DNA of 43,107 nucleotides, from assembly GCA_012518115.1 (NCBI GenBank), contig JAAYTD010000085.1:1-43107 (forward strand). Reading direction: 5' to 3'. The notes beneath the pieces are model-generated. The model was not told where the DNA came from, made no database searches, and saw only the letters and a program-made list of their open reading frames with translations. The position numbers and the translations under genes are program-made. Origin of the DNA: Ignavibacteria bacterium. GTDB lineage: Bacteria; Bacteroidota; Ignavibacteria; Kapaibacteriales; UBA2268. Positions 14,206 through 38,080 of the stretch are shown here, one piece after another; position 1 is the stretch's first letter, and every line of letters begins with the position of its first letter.

Positions 14206-14570
14206 TCTTTGATGTCGGGGCGTATTTGATACGCCCTTTTTTGTCTGAACTATGATTTATGTGATTATTATGATTAACAGGATTATTGACACATGTGCCG
14301 TAGGCACAAAATTTCGGTAAAAGAAATGTAATCTTACTCATCTCGTCCCGTACGGAACGAAACATTAAGAAAGTATAAGTTTTACCGATATTTAATCCCT
14401 ACGGGATTTTATAAGGATAAATAATTAATAACCACACCTCCCCCGCTTCGCGGGTACTCCTTTCAAAGAGGAGAATTTCCCCTCTGCGAAGTTGGCAAAT
14501 TCCCCTTCGGCAGCTGTCGGGCGTGTCGCATACGCCCTACGCAGCTTGACGAGGTAGTCTATTAAATGTC
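14206..14570. repeat. Composite block of intergenic repeat modules
   Basis: Several short repeats known from elsewhere in the window lie side by side. A GGGCGTAT/ATACGCCC hairpin is at 14218-14236. A module beginning TGTCTGAACTATGATTTATG follows. Then come small palindromes (TGCCGTAGGCA, CCCGTACGG, ATCCCTACGGGAT), a CCCGCTTCGCGGGTACTCCT module, and near 14520 a GGGCGT/ACGCCC stem ending in GACGAGGTAGTC. No complete MITE ends are seen. An open frame on the minus strand across this block (14069-14365) is a by-product of the repeats. The rest of 14054-14628 is featureless apart from the ferredoxin promoter. Confidence 0.7.
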
Positions 14571-24903: not shown

Positions 24904-26472
24904 ATGGCGAAAAAACAAGCAAAAGAAAAAACAATAGAAGTAGCGTTGTGGGAAACAGCAAATAAATTGCGTGGAACTGTTGAGCCTTCGCAATATAAGC
25001 ACGTGGTATTGGCGTTGATTTTTTTGAAGTTCGCGAGCGATAAATTTGAAGAGCAACGACAAAAACTAATTGACGACGGTAAAGAGAAATATGTCGAAAG
25101 ACCAGAGTTTTATAATATGAACAACGTCTTTTTTCTAAAAGAAGAGACCCGTTGGACATACATTGTCAGCCAAGCTCGTCAAAACGACATCTCGCTGATA
25201 ATTGATTCTGCTTTACACACTATAGAAGAAGACAATGAAGCGCTGAAAGGTGCATTACCCAACAACTATTTTTCGAGTCTTGGACTTGACACATCTAAAT
25301 TAGCCGCTCTTATCAGCGAAATAGATAGTATAGACACATTAAAGGACAAAGAACAAGATGTTATCGGACGTATTTATGAGTATTTTCTGAGCAAGTTTGC
25401 CATTGCTGAAGGAAAAGGGAAAGGCGAGTTTTACACGCCCAAAAGCATTGTAAATTTAATTGTTGAGCTGATAGAACCTTATAAAGGCTTTATTTATGAT
25501 CCATGTTGCGGTTCGGGCGGAATGTTTGTGCAATCTATAAAGTTTATCGAGGCACATCACGGCAACCAAAAAGAGGTTTCCATTTACGGACAGGAAAATA
25601 TAAACACAACATATAAATTGGCGAAAATGAATCTTGCCATTCGAGGCATTTCTGCTAATTTAGGCGAAAAAGCCGCTAACACTTTTAGCAACGATTTACA
25701 TAAAGATTTGAAAGCTGATTTTATTATGGCAAATCCTCCTTTCAACCAAAAAGTTTGGCGAGAAGAAAACGAACTTTTAGACGACCCACGCTGGAAAGGT
25801 TACGAAGTACCACCCAAAAGCAACGCTAATTATGGTTGGATACTTCACATGGCATCTAAGCTTTCGGAAAATGGTGTGGCAGGATTTCTTTTAGCAAACG
25901 GAGCATTGAGCGGTGGCGGTGATGAATATAAAATACGTAAACAGCTGATTAAAAATGATTTGGTTGAAGCTATCTTGATTTTGCCACAAAATATGTTTTA
26001 TACCACTAATATAAGCGTAACACTTTGGATATTGAATAAAAACAAAAAAGAATACGTAAGGGCTATACATCAACGAAATTACCGAGACAGACAAAAAGAA
26101 ATTCTTTTTATGGATTTGCGGGAAATGGGCGAGCCGTTTGAGAAAAAATACATACAATTTTCTGAAAAAGATATTAGAAAAATCGCTGATACTTATCATA
26201 GCTGGCAATGTACGGATGAATTGAATTCGCCCTATCAAGATATTCCCGAATTCTGCTATTCTGCAGGTATAGAAGAAGTTAGAGAGAAAGATTATTCGCT
26301 TGTACCGAGCAGATACATAGAATTTGTAAATCGTGATGAAGAAATTGATTTTGACGAAAAAATGAAAACTTTACAGCAGGAAATTGGTGAATTATTGCAA
26401 GAAGAAAAAAAATCGCGAGAAGAATTGTTGGCTGTTTTTAAAAATTTAGGTTATAAAATTGAGTTAAAATGA
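24904..26472 (+). CDS. hsdM: Type I restriction-modification DNA methyltransferase (M subunit)
   Basis: Adenine-N6 methyltransferase of a type I restriction system; two copies join one HsdS. An N-terminal helical HsdM_N region covers about 8-150. The cofactor motif DPCCGSGG is at 199-206 and the catalytic motif NPPF at 277-280 (ADFIMANPPFN). GEFYTPKSIVNLIVELI (175-190) is also typical. The 522 residues are full length. Its stop overlaps the next start in ATGA, so the second gene is coupled to it. No Shine-Dalgarno is visible. Confidence 0.96.
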   Translation: MAKKQAKEKTIEVALWETANKLRGTVEPSQYKHVVLALIFLKFASDKFEEQRQKLIDDGKEKYVERPEFYNMNNVFFLKEETRWTYIVSQARQNDISLIIDSALHTIEEDNEALKGALPNNYFSSLGLDTSKLAALISEIDSIDTLKDKEQDVIGRIYEYFLSKFAIAEGKGKGEFYTPKSIVNLIVELIEPYKGFIYDPCCGSGGMFVQSIKFIEAHHGNQKEVSIYGQENINTTYKLAKMNLAIRGISANLGEKAANTFSNDLHKDLKADFIMANPPFNQKVWREENELLDDPRWKGYEVPPKSNANYGWILHMASKLSENGVAGFLLANGALSGGGDEYKIRKQLIKNDLVEAILILPQNMFYTTNISVTLWILNKNKKEYVRAIHQRNYRDRQKEILFMDLREMGEPFEKKYIQFSEKDIRKIADTYHSWQCTDELNSPYQDIPEFCYSAGIEEVREKDYSLVPSRYIEFVNRDEEIDFDEKMKTLQQEIGELLQEEKKSREELLAVFKNLGYKIELK

Positions 26473-28508
26473 ACGAAAAGCAAATAAATCCTTTTGAATT
26501 AGATGATGAGTATGTTATATATTCACTCATAAACAAAGAATTTTTACCGGAAGAATACCATGAACTTGAATATAAATCCGGTAAAGATGGATTTCCAAAA
26601 GAGATTTGGAAAACATATTCAGCCTTTGCCAACACAAATTCTGGTATTATTATCATTGGTATAAAAGAGAAAAGAGGTGTTTTTCTAGTTGAGGGATTGA
26701 CAGACGAACAAATTTCAAACTATAAAAAGCATTTTTGGGACAGCTGCAACAATCCGAATACCGTTAGTGTCAATCTTTTGAGTAACGAAGATATAAAAGT
26801 AATTGAGACAAATTCAAAAAAACTGTTAGTTATTCGAGTTCCTTTCGCTCATCGTACCAAAAGACCGGTTTTTCTTACACGAAATCCATTTGGAAACACG
26901 TACAAACGCAACTACGAAGGCGACTACAGATGTACTGATGACGAAGTAAGAAGGATGCTAGCTGAAGGCGGCACAGAGCTTAAAAGAGATAACTTGCTTT
27001 TAGAAAATTTCACGATAGACGATTTAGATCCTGTCAGTATTCGTCAGTTTCGTCAATTGTTTTCATCTACAAGACCAGGGCACCCTTGGCTTGCTTTAGA
27101 AGATAAAGACCTACTAAAGAAACTCGGAGCTTATCGCATTGACCGAAAAACTGGACAAGAAGGAATTACGCTTGCTGGGCTGTTAATGTTTGGCAAAGGA
27201 GACAGCATACGAGAACAAGATGCTTTACCTGATTACTTTCCTGATTTTAGAGAGCGTTTGTCAATAGATGAAAAAGTGCGTTGGACGGATCGTATTTATC
27301 CAGACGGAACTTGGGAAAGCAATTTACTTCAATTTTATTTGAAAGTATTGCCCAAATTATCATCTACATTACCTAAACCATTCCGCTTAGATAAAGATGA
27401 ACGTGTTGATGAAACACCTGCTCATATTGCGCTGCGTGAAGCTTTTGTAAATGCATTAGTGCATACTGATTATTCGTTAAGTGGCAACATTATCATTGAA
27501 CTTGATACCGAACAATTTGTATTTTCAAATCCCGGTACACTACTTGTTTCTTTGGAACAATATTATGCGGGAGGAGTGAGTGAGTGTCGTAATCCTGCAT
27601 TACAACAAATGTTTATGCTGATTGGTCGTGCTGAAAAAGCTGGTAGTGGAGTGGACAAAATTATGTCAGGTTGGCAAGATTCTCATTGGCGAAAACCTTT
27701 TCTTGTGTTAGAAAACAAACCAGATAAAGTTAAACTCACTTTACCTATGTTTAGCGTATTGCCTAAACAAGTACTAAACGAGTTAAATACTATTTATGGC
27801 GATGTGAGCCATTTTAGTCCCGACGAACTAACTGCACTTTCTTTCTGTCTGATAGAGGGCTCAATTTCCAACCACCGCTTGCAATATGTGTTAAATATGC
27901 ACAGTTCAGACATTACGAAAATGCTTAAAAAATTGTGTGTGGGTGATTATTTAGAAGCTGAAAATTATGGTCGCTGGACTACTTATAAAATTAAACATAA
28001 GGTTGCAAGCTCAGGCGGAAACCTTGCAAGCTCAGGCGGAAAGGTTGCAACCTCAAGCGGAAAGGTTGCAAGCTCAGGCGGAAAGGTTGCAAGCTCAGGC
28101 GGAAACCTTGCAACCTCAAGCGGAAACCTTGCAACCTCAGGTGGAAAGGTTGCAAGCTCAGGCGGAAACCTTGCAACCTCAGGCGAAAAGGTTGCAAGCT
28201 CAGGCGGAAAGGTTGCAAGCTCAGGCGGAAACCTTGCAAGCTCAGGCGGAAACCTTGCAAGCTTAACCGAACTTCCTAAAAGGATAAGTATAGCAAAAAT
28301 GGAAGATATAATTATGAGAATTTGTAAGGATAATTACGTTAAAAAAGAAGAGATTGCAACATTATTGAACCGTTCAGAAAACTACATAAGAAATGAAATT
28401 TTACCTAAAATGATAAAAGAGAAAAAAATAGAGAAAAAATATCCGTACACACACAATCATCCTGAACAAGCTTATAAAACTACAGAGGAATATGCGGAAA
28501 AACTATAA
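26469..28508 (+). CDS. AlbA_2 / HATPase_c_4 DNA-binding protein with heptapeptide repeats
   Basis: A 679-residue protein of the COG2865 type. The AlbA_2 (Schlafen-like) domain is about 25-165 (EYHELEYKSG ... FANTNSGIIIIGIKE). A GHKL-type ATP-binding domain holds EAFVNALVHTDYS (324-336), FSNPG (352-356) and AEKAGSGVDKI (388-398). A helix-turn-helix part (about 440-505) follows. Then come twelve seven-residue repeats of form (V/L)A(S/T)S(G/S)G(K/N) at 512-595. The C-terminal winged-helix stretch (about 600-665) has KKEEIATLLNRSENYIRNEIL. It overlaps hsdM by 4 bases and hsdS by 17. Its role in restriction is unknown; control of the system is plausible. Confidence 0.85.
   Translation: MNEKQINPFELDDEYVIYSLINKEFLPEEYHELEYKSGKDGFPKEIWKTYSAFANTNSGIIIIGIKEKRGVFLVEGLTDEQISNYKKHFWDSCNNPNTVSVNLLSNEDIKVIETNSKKLLVIRVPFAHRTKRPVFLTRNPFGNTYKRNYEGDYRCTDDEVRRMLAEGGTELKRDNLLLENFTIDDLDPVSIRQFRQLFSSTRPGHPWLALEDKDLLKKLGAYRIDRKTGQEGITLAGLLMFGKGDSIREQDALPDYFPDFRERLSIDEKVRWTDRIYPDGTWESNLLQFYLKVLPKLSSTLPKPFRLDKDERVDETPAHIALREAFVNALVHTDYSLSGNIIIELDTEQFVFSNPGTLLVSLEQYYAGGVSECRNPALQQMFMLIGRAEKAGSGVDKIMSGWQDSHWRKPFLVLENKPDKVKLTLPMFSVLPKQVLNELNTIYGDVSHFSPDELTALSFCLIEGSISNHRLQYVLNMHSSDITKMLKKLCVGDYLEAENYGRWTTYKIKHKVASSGGNLASSGGKVATSSGKVASSGGKVASSGGNLATSSGNLATSGGKVASSGGNLATSGEKVASSGGKVASSGGNLASSGGNLASLTELPKRISIAKMEDIIMRICKDNYVKKEEIATLLNRSENYIRNEILPKMIKEKKIEKKYPYTHNHPEQAYKTTEEYAEKL
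28002..28265 (+). repeat. Twelve 21-bp tandem repeats inside the AlbA_2 gene
   Basis: Twelve full units (28002-28253) plus 12 bases of a thirteenth. The unit is (G/C)TTGCAAgCTCAGGCGGAAA(G/C). Variation is limited to a few positions: GGTT or CCTT at the joint, AAGC or AACC after the core, and three units with CAAGC, CAGGT or CAGGCG. Each unit centres on the palindrome TTGCAA. Because 21 divides by three, all reading frames stay open, which creates long spurious frames. Confidence 0.97.
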
Positions 28509-29643
28509 ACGATTAGGCGATTATATACAGCTAGTGGATGAAAGAAATTCTGATTTGAAAGTTTCTAAACTTGTCGGCGTAACTATAAACAAAGAATTTA
28601 TTCCGTCTGTAGCAAACACAATTGGCACGGATATGACAAATTACAAAATAATCCGTAAAGACCAATTTGCTTGTTGTTTGATGCAGGTGCGTAGGGATAA
28701 AAAAATTCCGATTGCACTGTTTCTGGAAGAAGAACCAGCTATTATTACACAAGCCTATCCTGTTTTTGAAATTGTTGAAACTCATGTATTGTTGCCTGAA
28801 TATCTTATGATGTGGTTTAGTCGAGTAGAATTTGATAGGCAAGCCTGTTTTCATGCCGTAGGCGGAGTGCGTGGAAGTTTGGAGTGGAGTGATTTCTGCA
28901 ATTTTATGCTTCCTATTCCTGATATTACACAACAACAAGCCATAGTAGATGAATACCAAACTATAGAGAGACGCATACAGATAAACGAAGAGCTCTGCCA
29001 AAAATTAGAAGAAACAGCACAAGCGTTATATAGAAAATATTTTATAGATGATATTGATCCTGAGAATTTACCGGAAGGGTGGAGAATGACAGAAATTAAA
29101 GAAATAGGTGAAGTTATTACGGGAAAAACTCCACCAACAGATGACGAGGATAATTTTGGTAACTTTATGCCTTTTATAACTATTCCTGATATGCACAATA
29201 ATGTTTTTACTTTCAAAACGGAAAGATATCTTTCTAAAAAGGGTGCATTATCACAAAAGAATAAAACTTTACCTGAAAACTCAATTTGTGTTAGTTGTAT
29301 TGGGACGGCAGGATTGGTTACAATTGTTACAGAACCAAGTCAAACAAATCAACAAATAAATAGTATTGTTTGTCACAAAGATTTTAGTGTTTACTATATT
29401 TTTCTAACAATGAGAAATCTAAGCCATATAGTACAAAGTCATGGCGAAAAAGGTTCTGTCGGAAACAATCTAAATAAACAAGAATTTTCAAACCTGATGT
29501 TGGTGGTGCCATCAGGTGATATGATGAAAGAATTTCAAAATAGGGTAGAACCTATTTTTGAAGTTATAAAATATCGAAGTAAAGAAACTCATAAACTAAA
29601 AGAATTACTATCTTTGCTGTTAGCAAAGATGGGGAGAGAATAA
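28492..29643 (+). CDS. hsdS: Type I restriction-modification specificity subunit
   Basis: Reads the two halves of the target site. The 383 residues hold two target-recognition domains. The first (about 1-150) ends with the conserved helix DITQQQAIVDEYQTIERRIQINEELCQKLEETAQALYRKYF. The second (about 190-345) starts ENLPEGWRMTEIKEIGEVITGKTP and ends NKQEFSNLMLVVPS. The N-terminus is short, starting at the RLGDYIQLVDERN strand. It overlaps the AlbA_2 gene by 17 bases. The recognised sequence cannot be read from the protein. Confidence 0.93.
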   Translation: MRKNYKRLGDYIQLVDERNSDLKVSKLVGVTINKEFIPSVANTIGTDMTNYKIIRKDQFACCLMQVRRDKKIPIALFLEEEPAIITQAYPVFEIVETHVLLPEYLMMWFSRVEFDRQACFHAVGGVRGSLEWSDFCNFMLPIPDITQQQAIVDEYQTIERRIQINEELCQKLEETAQALYRKYFIDDIDPENLPEGWRMTEIKEIGEVITGKTPPTDDEDNFGNFMPFITIPDMHNNVFTFKTERYLSKKGALSQKNKTLPENSICVSCIGTAGLVTIVTEPSQTNQQINSIVCHKDFSVYYIFLTMRNLSHIVQSHGEKGSVGNNLNKQEFSNLMLVVPSGDMMKEFQNRVEPIFEVIKYRSKETHKLKELLSLLLAKMGRE

Positions 29644-29646
29644 ATA

Positions 29647-30303
29647 ATGACAATCCAGCACGAACATAATCGCAAAAGTATTCGCCTAAAAGGATACGAT
29701 TATTCGCAAGAAGGATTGTATTTTATAACGATTTGTTGTCAAGATGAAATTTGTAGGTTTGGACATATTGAAAACGACGAAATGATATGTAACCAATATG
29801 GAATTGTGGCATACAACGAATGGATGAAAACGCCACAAATACGTTCAAATATTACGTTGCACGAATTTGTTGTGATGCCCAATCATATCCACGGTATTAT
29901 TGAAATAAATCACGATACGGAATTATATTTCCAAAACCGTATGGGCGAATTGTATATCCCGAATCGTATGGACGAATTATATCCCCAAAACCGTATGGAC
30001 GAATTGCATACCAAAAGCTGTAGGGGCGAATTGCATTCGCCCATTCCAGCGGGCGTATTCAATACGCCCCTACGGATGCGGTCGCCGTCGCAAACGATTG
30101 GTGCAATCGTCCGCGGGTACAAATCGGCGGTTACAAAACAATTGAATGCGTTGGGAATGATCGAAAAATTATGGCAAGGCAATTATTACGAACATATTAT
30201 ACGCAATGAAAAATCATATTTGCATATTTCTGAATATATTCACAACAATCCCATACAATGGATAAACGATAAATTTTATAATCATGAAACTTACAGAAAA
30301 TGA
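29647..30303 (+). CDS. REP-associated tyrosine transposase (Y1_Tnp, RAYT)
   Basis: A single-strand DNA transposase of the IS200-like HUH type. The metal-binding HUH pair is H80-I-H82 in VVMPNHIHGII. The attacking tyrosine is likely Y180 or Y181 in WQGNYYEHIIRNE. Residues about 91-146 are an insertion not normal for the family, made of nine-residue repeats (ELYxxNRMD) and an REP-like palindrome at DNA level. The gene starts three bases after hsdS and ends 20 bases inside hsdR, so it sits in the restriction operon without breaking it. No flanking transposon ends were found. The frame is intact. Confidence 0.88.
   Translation: MTIQHEHNRKSIRLKGYDYSQEGLYFITICCQDEICRFGHIENDEMICNQYGIVAYNEWMKTPQIRSNITLHEFVVMPNHIHGIIEINHDTELYFQNRMGELYIPNRMDELYPQNRMDELHTKSCRGELHSPIPAGVFNTPLRMRSPSQTIGAIVRGYKSAVTKQLNALGMIEKLWQGNYYEHIIRNEKSYLHISEYIHNNPIQWINDKFYNHETYRK
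29920..30027 (+). repeat. Four 27-bp tandem repeats inside the RAYT gene
   Basis: Four degenerate units begin at 29920, 29947, 29974 and 30001. They start GAATT and end near CGTATGGRC or TGTAGGGGC. They encode ELYFQNRMG, ELYIPNRMD, ELYPQNRMD and ELHTKSCRG. The last unit runs directly into the palindrome at 30021. Confidence 0.9.
30021..30072 (+). repeat. REP-like double hairpin inside the RAYT gene
   Basis: TAGGGGCG at 30021 pairs with CGCCCCTA ending at 30072. Between them are two perfect hairpins: GGGCGAAT/ATTCGCCC (30024-30042) and GGGCGTATT/AATACGCCC (30051-30069). The second has the same stem as the hairpin at 14218-14236. RAYT proteins act on such palindromes. Confidence 0.88.
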
Positions 30304-33300
30304 ATTAGAAAAGGTATTTATTGAATTATTAGAGCAAGAGGGCTACGCACATAGTGCAGGTGCTTCGTTGCCACGTTCCTCAATGAACGAGGTGCTAATA
30401 GAAGAAGATTTGCGTAGTTTTTTGCTTTCGCGCTATAAGTCAGACAAACTGACGGAAAACGAGCTTAGTTCTATCATCCAACAACTTAAGTCGCTTTCTT
30501 CTAATGACTTATACGAAAGTAATAAGCGGTTTATGCAGATGCTTTCAAACGGTTTTATTCTGAAAAGAGATGACCACAAGCAGAAAGATATTTACATTGA
30601 GTTTATTGACTATAGATCTTTAGAAAAAAATCTATATCTTAAATCCGAAAAAGCTACTTCTCTAGTTGCGGAAAATAATGAAGACAATAATATCTACAGA
30701 TTTGTAACTCAGTTGAAAATCGAAGGCAACGAAAAACGTATTCCCGACGGAATTATTTATGTAAACGGCTTGCCATTAGTGGTTTTTGAATTTAAGACTA
30801 CCATTAAAGAAGAAACTACAATTCACGATGCTTACAAGCAACTTACAGTGCGTTATCGTCGCGATATTCCCGAACTTTTCAAATACAACGCTTTTTGTGT
30901 TATCAGCGATGGCGTAAACAGTAAGGCAGGCTCATTGTTTGCTCCTTACGAGTTTTATTATGCATGGAGAAGAATAGAAAGTTTATCAAAAGATGTTGAC
31001 GGAATTGACAGTATGTTTACCTTAATCAAAGGAATGTTCAACAAAAACCGTTTTCGAGACATACTTCGTAATTTTATCTTTTTTCCCGATACAGAAAAAA
31101 ATGAAAGTAAAATTGTTTGTCGCTATCCTCAATATTATGCTGCCCGTGCTTTATACGAAAATATCAAGCAAGTTCAAAAACCTCATGGAAATGGAAAAGG
31201 CGGAACATATTTCGGAGCAACTGGCAGTGGCAAAAGCTTCACGATGCTTTATCTTACACGTTTGCTGATGAAAAGCGAATATTTTGCTAGTCCAACAATT
31301 GTACTTATTACAGATCGTACCGATTTAGACGACCAGCTAGCTGCACAATTTGTAAATGCCAAGGAATTTATAGGTGATGATACAGTGCAAAGCGTAGAAA
31401 GTCGTGCAGATTTACGCGAAAAACTACAAGGCAGACAGAGCGGAGGCGTTTTTCTTACTACTATCCAGAAATTTGCTGAAGACACGGAATTGCTTACCGA
31501 ACGCTATAATGTGATTTGCATTTCAGATGAAGCACATCGCACACAAACAAATCTTGACCAAAAAATCCGTATTACCGAGCAAGGAGTTATTAAATCGTTT
31601 GGTTTTGCTAAATATCTGCACGATTCTTTGCCTAATGCTACTTACGTTGGTTTTACGGGAACACCTATAGATGCTACTTTAGATGTTTTCGGTCCAGTGG
31701 TAGATTCTTACACAATGACCGAATCAGTTAAAGATGAAATTACTGTGCGTATCGTTTACGAAGGCAGAGCTGCTAAAGTAGCTTTAGACAATAGCAAGTT
31801 AGAGGAGATAGAGCGTTACTACGAAGCGGCTGCGGAAGCTGGAGCTAATGAATATCAAATTGAGCAAAGTAAAAAAGAAACTGCTAAAATGAACGCTATT
31901 CTTGGCGATCCAAAACGTTTACAAAGTATTGCTAAAGATTTTGTAGAACATTATGAAAAACGTGTTTCGGAAAAAGCAACGTTGAAAGGTAAAGCTATGT
32001 TTGTTTGTAGCAACAGAGAAATAGCTTACGATCTGTTTAAGCGGATTATTGCACTTCGTCCCGAATGGAATGAAATACGTGCAGCAGAAGAAGGAGCAGA
32101 ACTTTCCGACAAGGATAAAAGGGAATTGAAACCAATAGAGCGAATAAAAATGGTAATGACACGCTCAAAAGACGACGAGAAAGAACTTTGGGATTTGTTA
32201 GGAACAAAGGAAGACAGAAAAGAGCTCGACAGACAATTCAAAAATGAGAAATCTAACTTTAAAATAGCTATCGTGGTTGATATGTGGCTAACAGGGTTCG
32301 ACGTGCCTTTTTTGGATACTATTTATATTGACAAACCAATACAGCAACACAATTTAATACAAACTATTTCGCGAGTAAATCGCCGAGTGGAAGGGAAAAA
32401 CAAAGGGCTTGTGGTTGATTATATTGGCATCAAAAAACAGATGAATTTGGCACTTGCTCAATACGATAAAATTGACAGTGATAATTTTGAAGATATATCT
32501 CAATCACTTATGATAATGCGAGAGCATTTGGATTTGTTGAAACGCTTGATGCACAAGTTTGACGATACAAAGTATTTCAAAGGTTCAAACTTAGAAAAAC
32601 TAAATACGCTTAATTTGGCTGCTGAGTTTGTGCAACAAACCAAAGAAACTGAAAGTAAATTTATGGGGCTTACAAAACGTTTGAAAGCTGCTTATGATAT
32701 TTGCGTGGGAAGCGAACAAATAACACCGGAAGAGCGAGATTATGTACATTTTTATCTAGCTATTCGTTCTATTATTTTTAAACTGATTAAAGGCGACACT
32801 CCCGATGTGGTACAAATGAACAACCGTGTGCGTCAGATGATTGAAGAAGCTTTACGAAGTGATGGTGTTGAGGAAATATTGAAAATTGGCGATGAAGCCA
32901 AAAGTGAACAAGATTTGTTTGACGAAGAATATTTGGCAAAAATCAATAAGATAAAGCTACCTAATACGAAAATCAAACTCTTGCAGAAACTTTTAGCAAA
33001 AGCTATTGGGCAACTGCGAAAAATTAATCGTATAAAAGGAATTGACTTTAGCAATCGAATGCAAGAATTAGTGAATCGATACAACAACCGTTCAGCAAAC
33101 GATATTTTGCGAAGCGAGGTATATGAAGAGATGGCTGAAAAGCTTACCGCTATGATTTGGGACGTACACAAAGAATTTTCTGCTGGCGAAGAGTTAGGAA
33201 TTGATTTTGAAGAAAAAGCCTTTTATGATATTCTAAAAGAGTTGTGCGTGAAATACGACTTTACATATCCCGACAACAAAATGATAGAATTGGCTAAAAA

Positions 33301-33496
33301 AGTCAAAAAGCTAGTTGATAGTCAGGCCTGTTATCCCGATTGGAATAAGCGTGAAGATATAAAGTCTACGTTGAAAGCCAGATTGATTTTATTGCTTGAT
33401 GAATACAATTATCCGCCTGCTGTGTTAGATGAAGCTTATACAGAAATTTTTGAACAAGCGGAAAATTTTAAGAAAAATATTAGATATAGTTATTAA
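30284..33496 (+). CDS. hsdR: Type I restriction endonuclease and translocase subunit
   Basis: Cuts DNA after ATP-driven translocation. The 1070-residue protein has the PD-(D/E)xK nuclease site at D155 and E169-F-K171 (RIPDGIIYVNGLPLVVFEFK). P-loop GATGSGKS is at 311-318, the DEAH box at 415-418 (ISDEAHRTQ), then GFTGTPID and the motif with GFDVPFLDTIYIDKP and QTISRVNR. The C-terminal helical part binds the methyltransferase. All key residues are present, so it looks active. The start overlaps the RAYT end by 20 bases. It converges on the permease gene with a 31-base gap and no clear terminator. Confidence 0.96.
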   Translation: MKLTENELEKVFIELLEQEGYAHSAGASLPRSSMNEVLIEEDLRSFLLSRYKSDKLTENELSSIIQQLKSLSSNDLYESNKRFMQMLSNGFILKRDDHKQKDIYIEFIDYRSLEKNLYLKSEKATSLVAENNEDNNIYRFVTQLKIEGNEKRIPDGIIYVNGLPLVVFEFKTTIKEETTIHDAYKQLTVRYRRDIPELFKYNAFCVISDGVNSKAGSLFAPYEFYYAWRRIESLSKDVDGIDSMFTLIKGMFNKNRFRDILRNFIFFPDTEKNESKIVCRYPQYYAARALYENIKQVQKPHGNGKGGTYFGATGSGKSFTMLYLTRLLMKSEYFASPTIVLITDRTDLDDQLAAQFVNAKEFIGDDTVQSVESRADLREKLQGRQSGGVFLTTIQKFAEDTELLTERYNVICISDEAHRTQTNLDQKIRITEQGVIKSFGFAKYLHDSLPNATYVGFTGTPIDATLDVFGPVVDSYTMTESVKDEITVRIVYEGRAAKVALDNSKLEEIERYYEAAAEAGANEYQIEQSKKETAKMNAILGDPKRLQSIAKDFVEHYEKRVSEKATLKGKAMFVCSNREIAYDLFKRIIALRPEWNEIRAAEEGAELSDKDKRELKPIERIKMVMTRSKDDEKELWDLLGTKEDRKELDRQFKNEKSNFKIAIVVDMWLTGFDVPFLDTIYIDKPIQQHNLIQTISRVNRRVEGKNKGLVVDYIGIKKQMNLALAQYDKIDSDNFEDISQSLMIMREHLDLLKRLMHKFDDTKYFKGSNLEKLNTLNLAAEFVQQTKETESKFMGLTKRLKAAYDICVGSEQITPEERDYVHFYLAIRSIIFKLIKGDTPDVVQMNNRVRQMIEEALRSDGVEEILKIGDEAKSEQDLFDEEYLAKINKIKLPNTKIKLLQKLLAKAIGQLRKINRIKGIDFSNRMQELVNRYNNRSANDILRSEVYEEMAEKLTAMIWDVHKEFSAGEELGIDFEEKAFYDILKELCVKYDFTYPDNKMIELAKKVKKLVDSQACYPDWNKREDIKSTLKARLILLLDEYNYPPAVLDEAYTEIFEQAENFKKNIRYSY

Positions 33497-37757: not shown

Positions 37758-38080
37758 ATACCATTTTGAATAATATATTAGTTCAATGATGTTTTAAAAT
37801 TCCCCTTCGGAACGAAGGGTGGCAAGCGAAGCTTGACAGGGTAGTCTATTAAAAAATTAACAACAAACCCCGTAGGGGTGAAATTATTATAGAAAAAAAA
37901 TTAGCAGAATGACAAACAAACCCCGTAGGGGTGACATACCGTTGTCGTTATGGCTAATTAAAAATGTCACCCCTACGGGGTTTTATAAAAATTTGGATTT
38001 CACAATACTATAATAATGTCATCCCTACGGGATTAATTAGGATAACTACGTTTAGAGCAAATTATAATTCAATTTGGTAT
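37758..38080. repeat. MITE-like element, copy 3
   Basis: A 323-bp element with ends ATACCATTTTGAATAAT and ATTCAATTTGGTAT. It carries the CCCCTTCGGAACGAAGG and GGCAAGCGAAGCTTGACAGGG modules and several CCCCGTAGGGGTGA repeats. A perfect 20-bp inverted repeat (37918-37937 with 37964-37983) lies inside, which makes this copy longer than copies 1 and 2. Confidence 0.78.
37918..37983. repeat. Perfect 20-bp inverted repeat with CCCCGTAGGGGTGA cores
   Basis: AAACCCCGTAGGGGTGACAT pairs with its complement at 37964-37983 around a 26-base loop. Related single copies are at 37866 and 38012, and ATCCCTACGGGAT occurs near 14390. On a transcript this would fold into a very stable stem. Confidence 0.9.

Follow-up and report, generated by a model that had tools for sequence, protein, structure and literature searches.

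In an Ignavibacteria bacterium, a type I restriction operon carries a RAYT gene between its hsdS and hsdR genes. This gene has probably, with a likelihood that we put at roughly 0.6, settled in a slot whose cargo rotates, and it is most likely a passenger and not a component of the restriction machine. RAYTs are long-lived relatives of transposases that often occur in single copy, and to our knowledge the reasons why they are kept are poorly explained. The operon was analyzed within a stretch of 43,107 nucleotides (contig JAAYTD010000085.1), hereafter referred to as the window, in which hsdM, an SLFN_AlbA_2 gene, hsdS, the RAYT gene, and hsdR follow one another head to tail on the plus strand (Table 1). 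The coordinates confirm the arrangement described in an earlier note on this DNA, with the RAYT gene starting 3 nt after hsdS, its last 20 bases overlapping hsdR, and all genes pointing in one direction. Lying between hsdS and hsdR on the strand of the operon, the gene occupies the position of hsd cargo (R-linked ORF). A simple scan from hsdS to the start of hsdR did not find a terminator-like site on the plus strand, and a single transcript therefore appears plausible. An Rfam scan of the window returned nothing beyond one tRNA. The gene between hsdM and hsdS and the inverted palindromes in the RAYT ORF (30020-30073) had gone unmentioned in the earlier note. The former carries a 21-nt tandem repeat (28003-28263, 12.4 copies), which encodes an ASSGG-type peptide run in the C-terminal part of the protein and is a candidate length-variable tract.

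Table 1 Positions of the operon genes, RAYT motifs, and palindromes in the window.
Feature	Position	Strand	Basis
hsdM, type I methyltransferase subunit	24904..26472	+	Pfam N6_Mtase 3.6e-106, HsdM_N 1.2e-22
SLFN_AlbA_2 / HATPase_c_4 gene, between hsdM and hsdS	26469..28508	+	Pfam
hsdS, specificity subunit	28492..29643	+	Pfam Methylase_S 3.7e-26
RAYT (TnpA-REP-type HUH enzyme), 218 aa, ATG start	29647..30303	+	NCBIfam NF047646 65 bits; fold match 4er8
HUH motif codons, H80-I81-H82	29884..29892	+	sequence
Linker, residues 92-144	29920..30078	+	pLDDT <50 save one residue; 27-nt tandem repeats in first part
GTAG-tagged palindrome, left arm of inverted pair	30020..30042	+	
GTAG-tagged palindrome, right arm of inverted pair	30051..30073	-	
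Y197 codon, equivalent to Y115 of 4er8	30235..30237	+	alignment
RAYT 3' end / hsdR 5' end overlap, 20 nt	30284..30303	+	
hsdR, restriction/translocase subunit	30284..33496	+	Pfam HSDR_N, SWI2_SNF2, T1RH-like_C

The RAYT protein matched the NCBIfam model REP_Tyr_transpos (NF047646) at 6.4e-18 with 65 bits, below the model cut-off of 80, and Pfam Y1_Tnp with 24.6 bits, just above the cut-off of 23. The former match is interrupted by the linker, and seven other RAYTs from hsdS-hsdR slots gave similar values (six at 54-74 bits, that of L112 at 79.7 bits); we read these scores as a poor fit of the model to this RAYT subclass and not as non-membership. A sequence search of solved structures (E up to 1) returned the E. 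coli TnpA-REP structure 4er8 as the sole match. The same structure was the best fold match (E 5e-7, prob 1.00) of an AlphaFold2 model with a mean pLDDT of 71 and core blocks at about 87-98, followed by IS200/IS605-type transposases. The His pair and Y197 align with 4er8, Y197 corresponding to Y115, which we take to be the catalytic tyrosine. That the catalytic HIH and Tyr residues are intact had been claimed before, and H80, H82, and Y197 are indeed invariant across an alignment of 13 of the 19 slot RAYTs seen. Judged by sequence and modeled structure, the gene is thus predicted with good support to encode an HUH/Tyr enzyme of the TnpA-REP fold that has kept its catalytic residues. While the fold, the His pair, and the aligned Tyr are shared with the E. 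coli protein, the two are only 17% identical in the fold alignment, and the latter has 165 aa and no long linker. In the window's RAYT, pLDDT values below 50 for residues 92-98 and 100-144 predict a disordered linker. RAYT linkers much lengthened by tandem peptide repeats were observed in L117 (1447-2472) and L124 (RAYT ORF of 402 aa), and the slot RAYT of L118 reads to us as frame-shifted. The genome of the window, a 97% complete draft, gave one RAYT match at E <= 0.001, in agreement with the description of RAYTs as single-copy enzymes in the earlier note. A Pfam Y1_Tnp profile search of this genome gave no match; it missed even the RAYT that passes the model in the window and is therefore too insensitive for copy counts.

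To see how often hsdR follows a RAYT, we searched with the window's RAYT protein, found RAYT relatives in 103 of 198 related genomes, and drew loci from the matches listed. Together, 30 loci and 80 further regions, reaching down to about E 2e-15 among the matches listed, yielded 109 distinct RAYT units. In 11 of them, the window included, the next gene downstream is an hsdR on the same strand, which makes 10 among the 108 others, and 98 units lack a direct downstream hsdR. If, as a guess, 1 gene in 1000 were located upstream of hsdR, 10 of 108 would be reached with a binomial probability of about 4e-17. Although the search started from a RAYT that is hsd-linked, six of the ten further direct cases (L117, L118, L124, L132, L140, L150) fall outside the 30 best loci. 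The commonest families among 75 same-strand downstream genes were ResIII (12), HSDR_N (11), and SWI2_SNF2 (11), and among 83 upstream genes Methylase_S (7), Eco57I (6), and N6_Mtase (4). The RAYTs of L009 and L024 adjoin Eco57I-type restriction-methylase-like genes (Pfam Eco57I), as do those of L017 and L127 by eye. Matches were few among plasmids and phages, with only three records and one record, respectively.

The junctions are alike as well. At 10 of the 11 RAYT-hsdR junctions, the end of the RAYT gene is overlapped by an ATG in frame with hsdR, compared to 8 of 64 other same-strand downstream ORFs (Fisher p = 5e-7; the 64 include unverified ORFs), the sole junction without overlap being that of L014 (+20 nt). 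A 4-nt ATGA overlap was found at six of the 11 junctions and at 2 of 64 elsewhere. All 19 slot RAYTs seen, i.e., those of the 11 direct units and of L111/L008, L112, L202, L206, L210, L214, L218, and L224, are oriented as hsdR, which places RAYTs in the hsdS-hsdR interval of 18 loci besides the window. These counts are limited by the material, since drafts and MAGs make up many of the genomes and several loci are cut off by contig ends; ORFs were taken as stop-to-stop frames, and hsd genes were identified with profiles seeded from the window, which may miss distant ones.

Approached from the HsdR side, the hsdS-RAYT-hsdR order, which the earlier note had proposed to look for in relatives, recurs too. 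A RAYT lies in the hsdS-hsdR interval, or directly upstream of hsdR at a contig edge, in 9 of 60 hsdR loci of relatives (L062, L063, L075, L076, L082, L084, L092, L111, and L112), eight of which also belong to the RAYT-side set. The slot RAYT of L112 is a much more distant one, and in L078 a RAYT is located upstream of hsdR but an opposite ORF intervenes. Two genomes have two RAYT-bearing hsd operons each, G061 (L063, L111) and G078 (L076, L084). In a named-genome scan with an alignment of six HsdR orthologues, 559 relatives were ranked and the 80 best, with identities of 65-84%, were considered. RAYTs are present at six of these 80 orthologue loci, two of the 60 with hsdS visible and four of the 20 without, and the remaining 74 show no RAYT in the visible part of the interval. 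Since most orthologous operons do without it, the RAYT is not needed for restriction.

What the interval holds instead is mostly other cargo. Among the 60 intervals with hsdS visible, 55 contain at least one gene and five are empty. As the sign of a recent insertion, the earlier note had named close relatives in which hsdS and hsdR adjoin without a RAYT; no such relative was found near the window, as none of the five empty intervals belongs to the 7-row HsdR clade of the window. The 185 cargo genes, from which RAYTs were counted apart, are headed by SLFN_AlbA_2 (21), HATPase_c_4 (20), TIR_2 (17), and AAA_21 (15), followed by AAA_15 (14), GmrSD_N (12), ThsB_TIR (12), and AbiEii (9). The commonest cargo families of the interval are thus of defence type, and the most frequent one, SLFN_AlbA_2, is the family of the window's gene between hsdM and hsdS. 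In the nearest HsdR relative (L196, 84% identical), a RhuM-family gene takes the place of the RAYT, and homology to the window starts at 30264, 20 nt before the ATG of hsdR. Recurring cargo sets were noticed in the intervals of L196-L275, for example an AbiEii/DUF6088 pair directly before hsdR. One HsdR, 67% identical to the Bacteroidota HsdR of the window, is encoded on a contig titled Methanosarcina sp. UBA402 (L269), which reflects either a cross-domain transfer or a binning error.

The company of defence-type genes raises the question of whether the RAYT itself acts in defence, by cleaving single-stranded DNA of phages or DNA that HsdR opens as it translocates. The shared interval, the retained catalytic residues, and the methylase genes that adjoin other RAYTs (Eco57I and N6_Mtase upstream of 6 and 4 of 83, respectively) fit such a role. 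However, no PADLOC family matches the RAYT at E <= 0.001 and 98 of the 109 RAYT units are not directly upstream of hsdR, and we regard a defence function as improbable. Still less credence is due to the idea that the RAYT moves the operon or drives the exchange of cargo or of hsdS. RAYT relatives are transposases and the cargo turns over quickly, as this idea would have it, yet the cargo varies between loci although 74 of 80 show no RAYT.

The history of the association was followed on trees of both proteins. In a quick first RAYT tree (111 rows), hsd residence required 12 changes for 13 hsd rows, at least 8 of them forced, and did not cluster (shuffled mean 12.5, 207 of 500 shuffles as low). 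A second, careful run (110 rows, bootstrap not settled), which left out L112, L179, L163, L172_1, L185, L164, and L153 for long branches or odd composition, gave 12 changes for 18 rows, with at least 9 forced by well-supported branches. Here hsd residence clusters (16.9 changes on average after shuffling, with none of 500 shuffles as low as 12), in part as a product of sampling because six RAYTs had been added via HsdR. On a quick HsdR tree under a simple model, the 9 carriers of a RAYT call for 9 changes, of which no fewer than 8 are forced, a result no better than that of shuffled labels (mean 8.7). The 12 changes in the RAYT tree and the 9 in that of HsdR lead us to reject a single ancestral RAYT kept by all hsd operons.

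One lineage has nevertheless stayed. The window's RAYT forms a clade (support 100/97) with those of G058, L210 (Confluentibacter lentus), and L214 (a Cytophagales MAG), and all four sit in intervals of the same HsdR family. With the linker left out, RAYT dN is 1.1-1.7 times HsdR dN in all six pairs of the clade. For L210-L214, dS is 0.47 for the RAYT and 0.60 for HsdR, and the RAYT dN/dS of about 0.11 shows that this pair is under purifying selection. dS is saturated or nearly so in the other five of the six pairs; co-descent is therefore shown for L210-L214 and merely consistent with the data elsewhere. The HsdR of G061 falls within the window's 7-row HsdR clade, yet the RAYT of this genome (L117) does not belong to the clade of four RAYTs. 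Together, these data indicate that RAYTs entered the hsd slot many times independently, that one lineage has long been resident, and that replacement is frequent. The view of the earlier note that the gene is maintained with the operon holds only in part, given the number of changes among carriers on the HsdR tree and the RhuM-family gene of L196.

The same data bear on a recent insertion that happened to fall between hsdS and hsdR. In its favor, the nearest HsdR relative has no RAYT; however, the site in that relative is filled by another cargo gene and not empty. Related RAYTs occupy the interval at three other loci, DNA homology in L210, L224, and L062 extends across the junction, from the 3' part of the RAYT gene into hsdR, and RAYTs are also found in the interval of unrelated hsd lineages. 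We consider a recent insertion very improbable and reject it on the basis of the all-hsd clade (unless this clade is an artefact), the recurring overlaps, and the continuous junction homology. The conclusion of the earlier note that the junction is settled rather than fresh is supported by the recurring start-stop overlaps, the clade that tracks HsdR, and the low dN/dS in one pair.

Purifying selection and co-divergence could alternatively mean that the RAYT serves the operon. In its broadest form, this would imply that hsd operons repeatedly adopted RAYTs as working parts, through a brake formed by hairpin and overlap or through an action on single-stranded DNA, with one lineage co-diverging with HsdR across Bacteroidota, a scenario that we find rather unlikely. 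The palindromes in the RAYT gene are of particular interest in this respect. In the coding sequence of the linker, 27-nt tandem repeats are followed by the inverted GTAG-tagged pair, both between H82 and Y197. Strong hairpins (perfect, arms of at least 9, at least 50% G+C, anywhere in the ORF) are present in 66 of 109 RAYT ORFs compared to 0.75 expected from codon shuffles. The RNA of positions 29900-30110 folds better than all 200 of 200 shuffles (z -3.4). The RAYT gene might accordingly be a regulatory part whose mRNA hairpins and hsdR overlap keep synthesis of the nuclease below that of the methylase and help the operon to become established in a new host. Besides the RNA fold, the overlap at 10 of 11 junctions and the strong hairpin in 9 of the 11 hsd-linked RAYT ORFs agree with this possibility. 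On the other hand, hairpins are also common in other RAYTs (57 of 98, p = 0.19), and 74 of the 80 orthologous loci have no RAYT in the visible part of the interval; we judge a regulatory role to be unlikely. The candidate notion that hairpins are special to hsd-linked RAYTs is unsupported by the same comparison. Hairpins in the 200-nt flanks are rarer at hsd-linked RAYTs (1 of 20 vs 51 of 180, p = 0.03), a deficit that is explained equally well by coding flanks.

Palindromes related to those of the RAYT gene occur elsewhere in the window's genome, where we counted 44 of the form GGGCG-N9-CGCCC. Their interpretation as dispersed REPs of the RAYT was weakened by the finding that the GTAG-tagged form, GTAGGGGCG-N9-CGCCC, is confined to the RAYT ORF in this genome, and further by the 24 copies that we read, which are part of a longer element with other flanks. 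A dispersed element of ~65 nt with the core GGGCGTATNNNATACGCCC was observed in the window at 14218-14236 and 14519-14537 and in loci L276-L295. The window's genome contains 37 copies of the core, whereas 53 other genomes of the family contain none, and the right palindrome of the RAYT has the same core; the link between this family and the window's RAYT is suggestive only. We also looked for the less stringent GGGCGWATNNNATWCGCCC in 10 genomes. The window's genome has it at 38 places, 36 of them outside the RAYT. Confluentibacter lentus has two, both within the RAYT. The Cytophagales genome has four, of which three are within the RAYT and the fourth, at 188-206, shortly precedes the RAYT start at 223. 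Of the three in G058, two belong to the RAYT and the third lies some 18 kb away. Three copies of a short ACCCCGTAGGGGT-like palindrome at 37868-37976 may represent a further repeat family.

In-frame REP sequences between HuH and Y have already been published (Quentin et al. 2018, PMC6006769) for RAYT subclass 2.4, which, according to the main text of the study, is common in Bacteroidetes and whose variable linker lies at a distance from the active site. The window's RAYT shares with this subclass the HUH/Tyr residues and the in-frame palindrome pair between H82 and Y197, and by resemblance, not by placement in the Quentin tree, it would belong to subclass 2.4. It differs from the published account in its location inside an hsd operon, the main text giving 0 hits for 'restriction', 'hsd', and 'defense'. 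Regarding the slot, a 2005 study, as described in PMC5183652, found additional ORFs in two places, one between hsdR and hsdS and the other between hsdS and hsdM. Both interval positions are used in the window as well; the bacterial group is another one, and that description mentions no RAYT. In EPEC, DarTG2 is located between hsdS and hsdR, for which the authors suggest a potential recombination hotspot (PMC12255303). The same interval is thus used by defence cargo, although the cargo there is a toxin-antitoxin pair and the searched text has 0 hits for 'transposase'. A literature search, mainly of open-licence papers, returned no RAYT inside an hsd operon among the matches listed. Palindromes within the ORF were therefore already known, and the recurrence of RAYTs in the hsdS-hsdR interval was not found in the literature searched.

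Returning to the RAYT as a settled passenger, we envisage that it is read from the hsd transcript, that translation of hsdR may be coupled to it, and that the enzyme would act on single-stranded GTAG-tagged hairpins. The operon would supply the RAYT with expression and transfer, and thereby let the passenger persist. As a rule, restriction operons are costly to lose. Loss of the RAYT would be costly too, because a break between the methylase genes and the nuclease gene would disturb hsdR. As the palindromes lie inside the RAYT gene, we propose that the enzyme carries its own substrate wherever the operon moves. As the GTAG-tagged form is confined to the RAYT itself in the window's genome, a spread of this form by the RAYT is at most conjectural.

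Overall, a recurrent home in a mobile operon that is costly to break provides a concrete and testable route to RAYT persistence. It also adds an enzyme from outside defence to the known cargo of the hsdS-hsdR interval, and similar HsdR proteins with and without a RAYT offer natural comparisons for experiments. The slot bears on how restriction operons gather and retain passengers.
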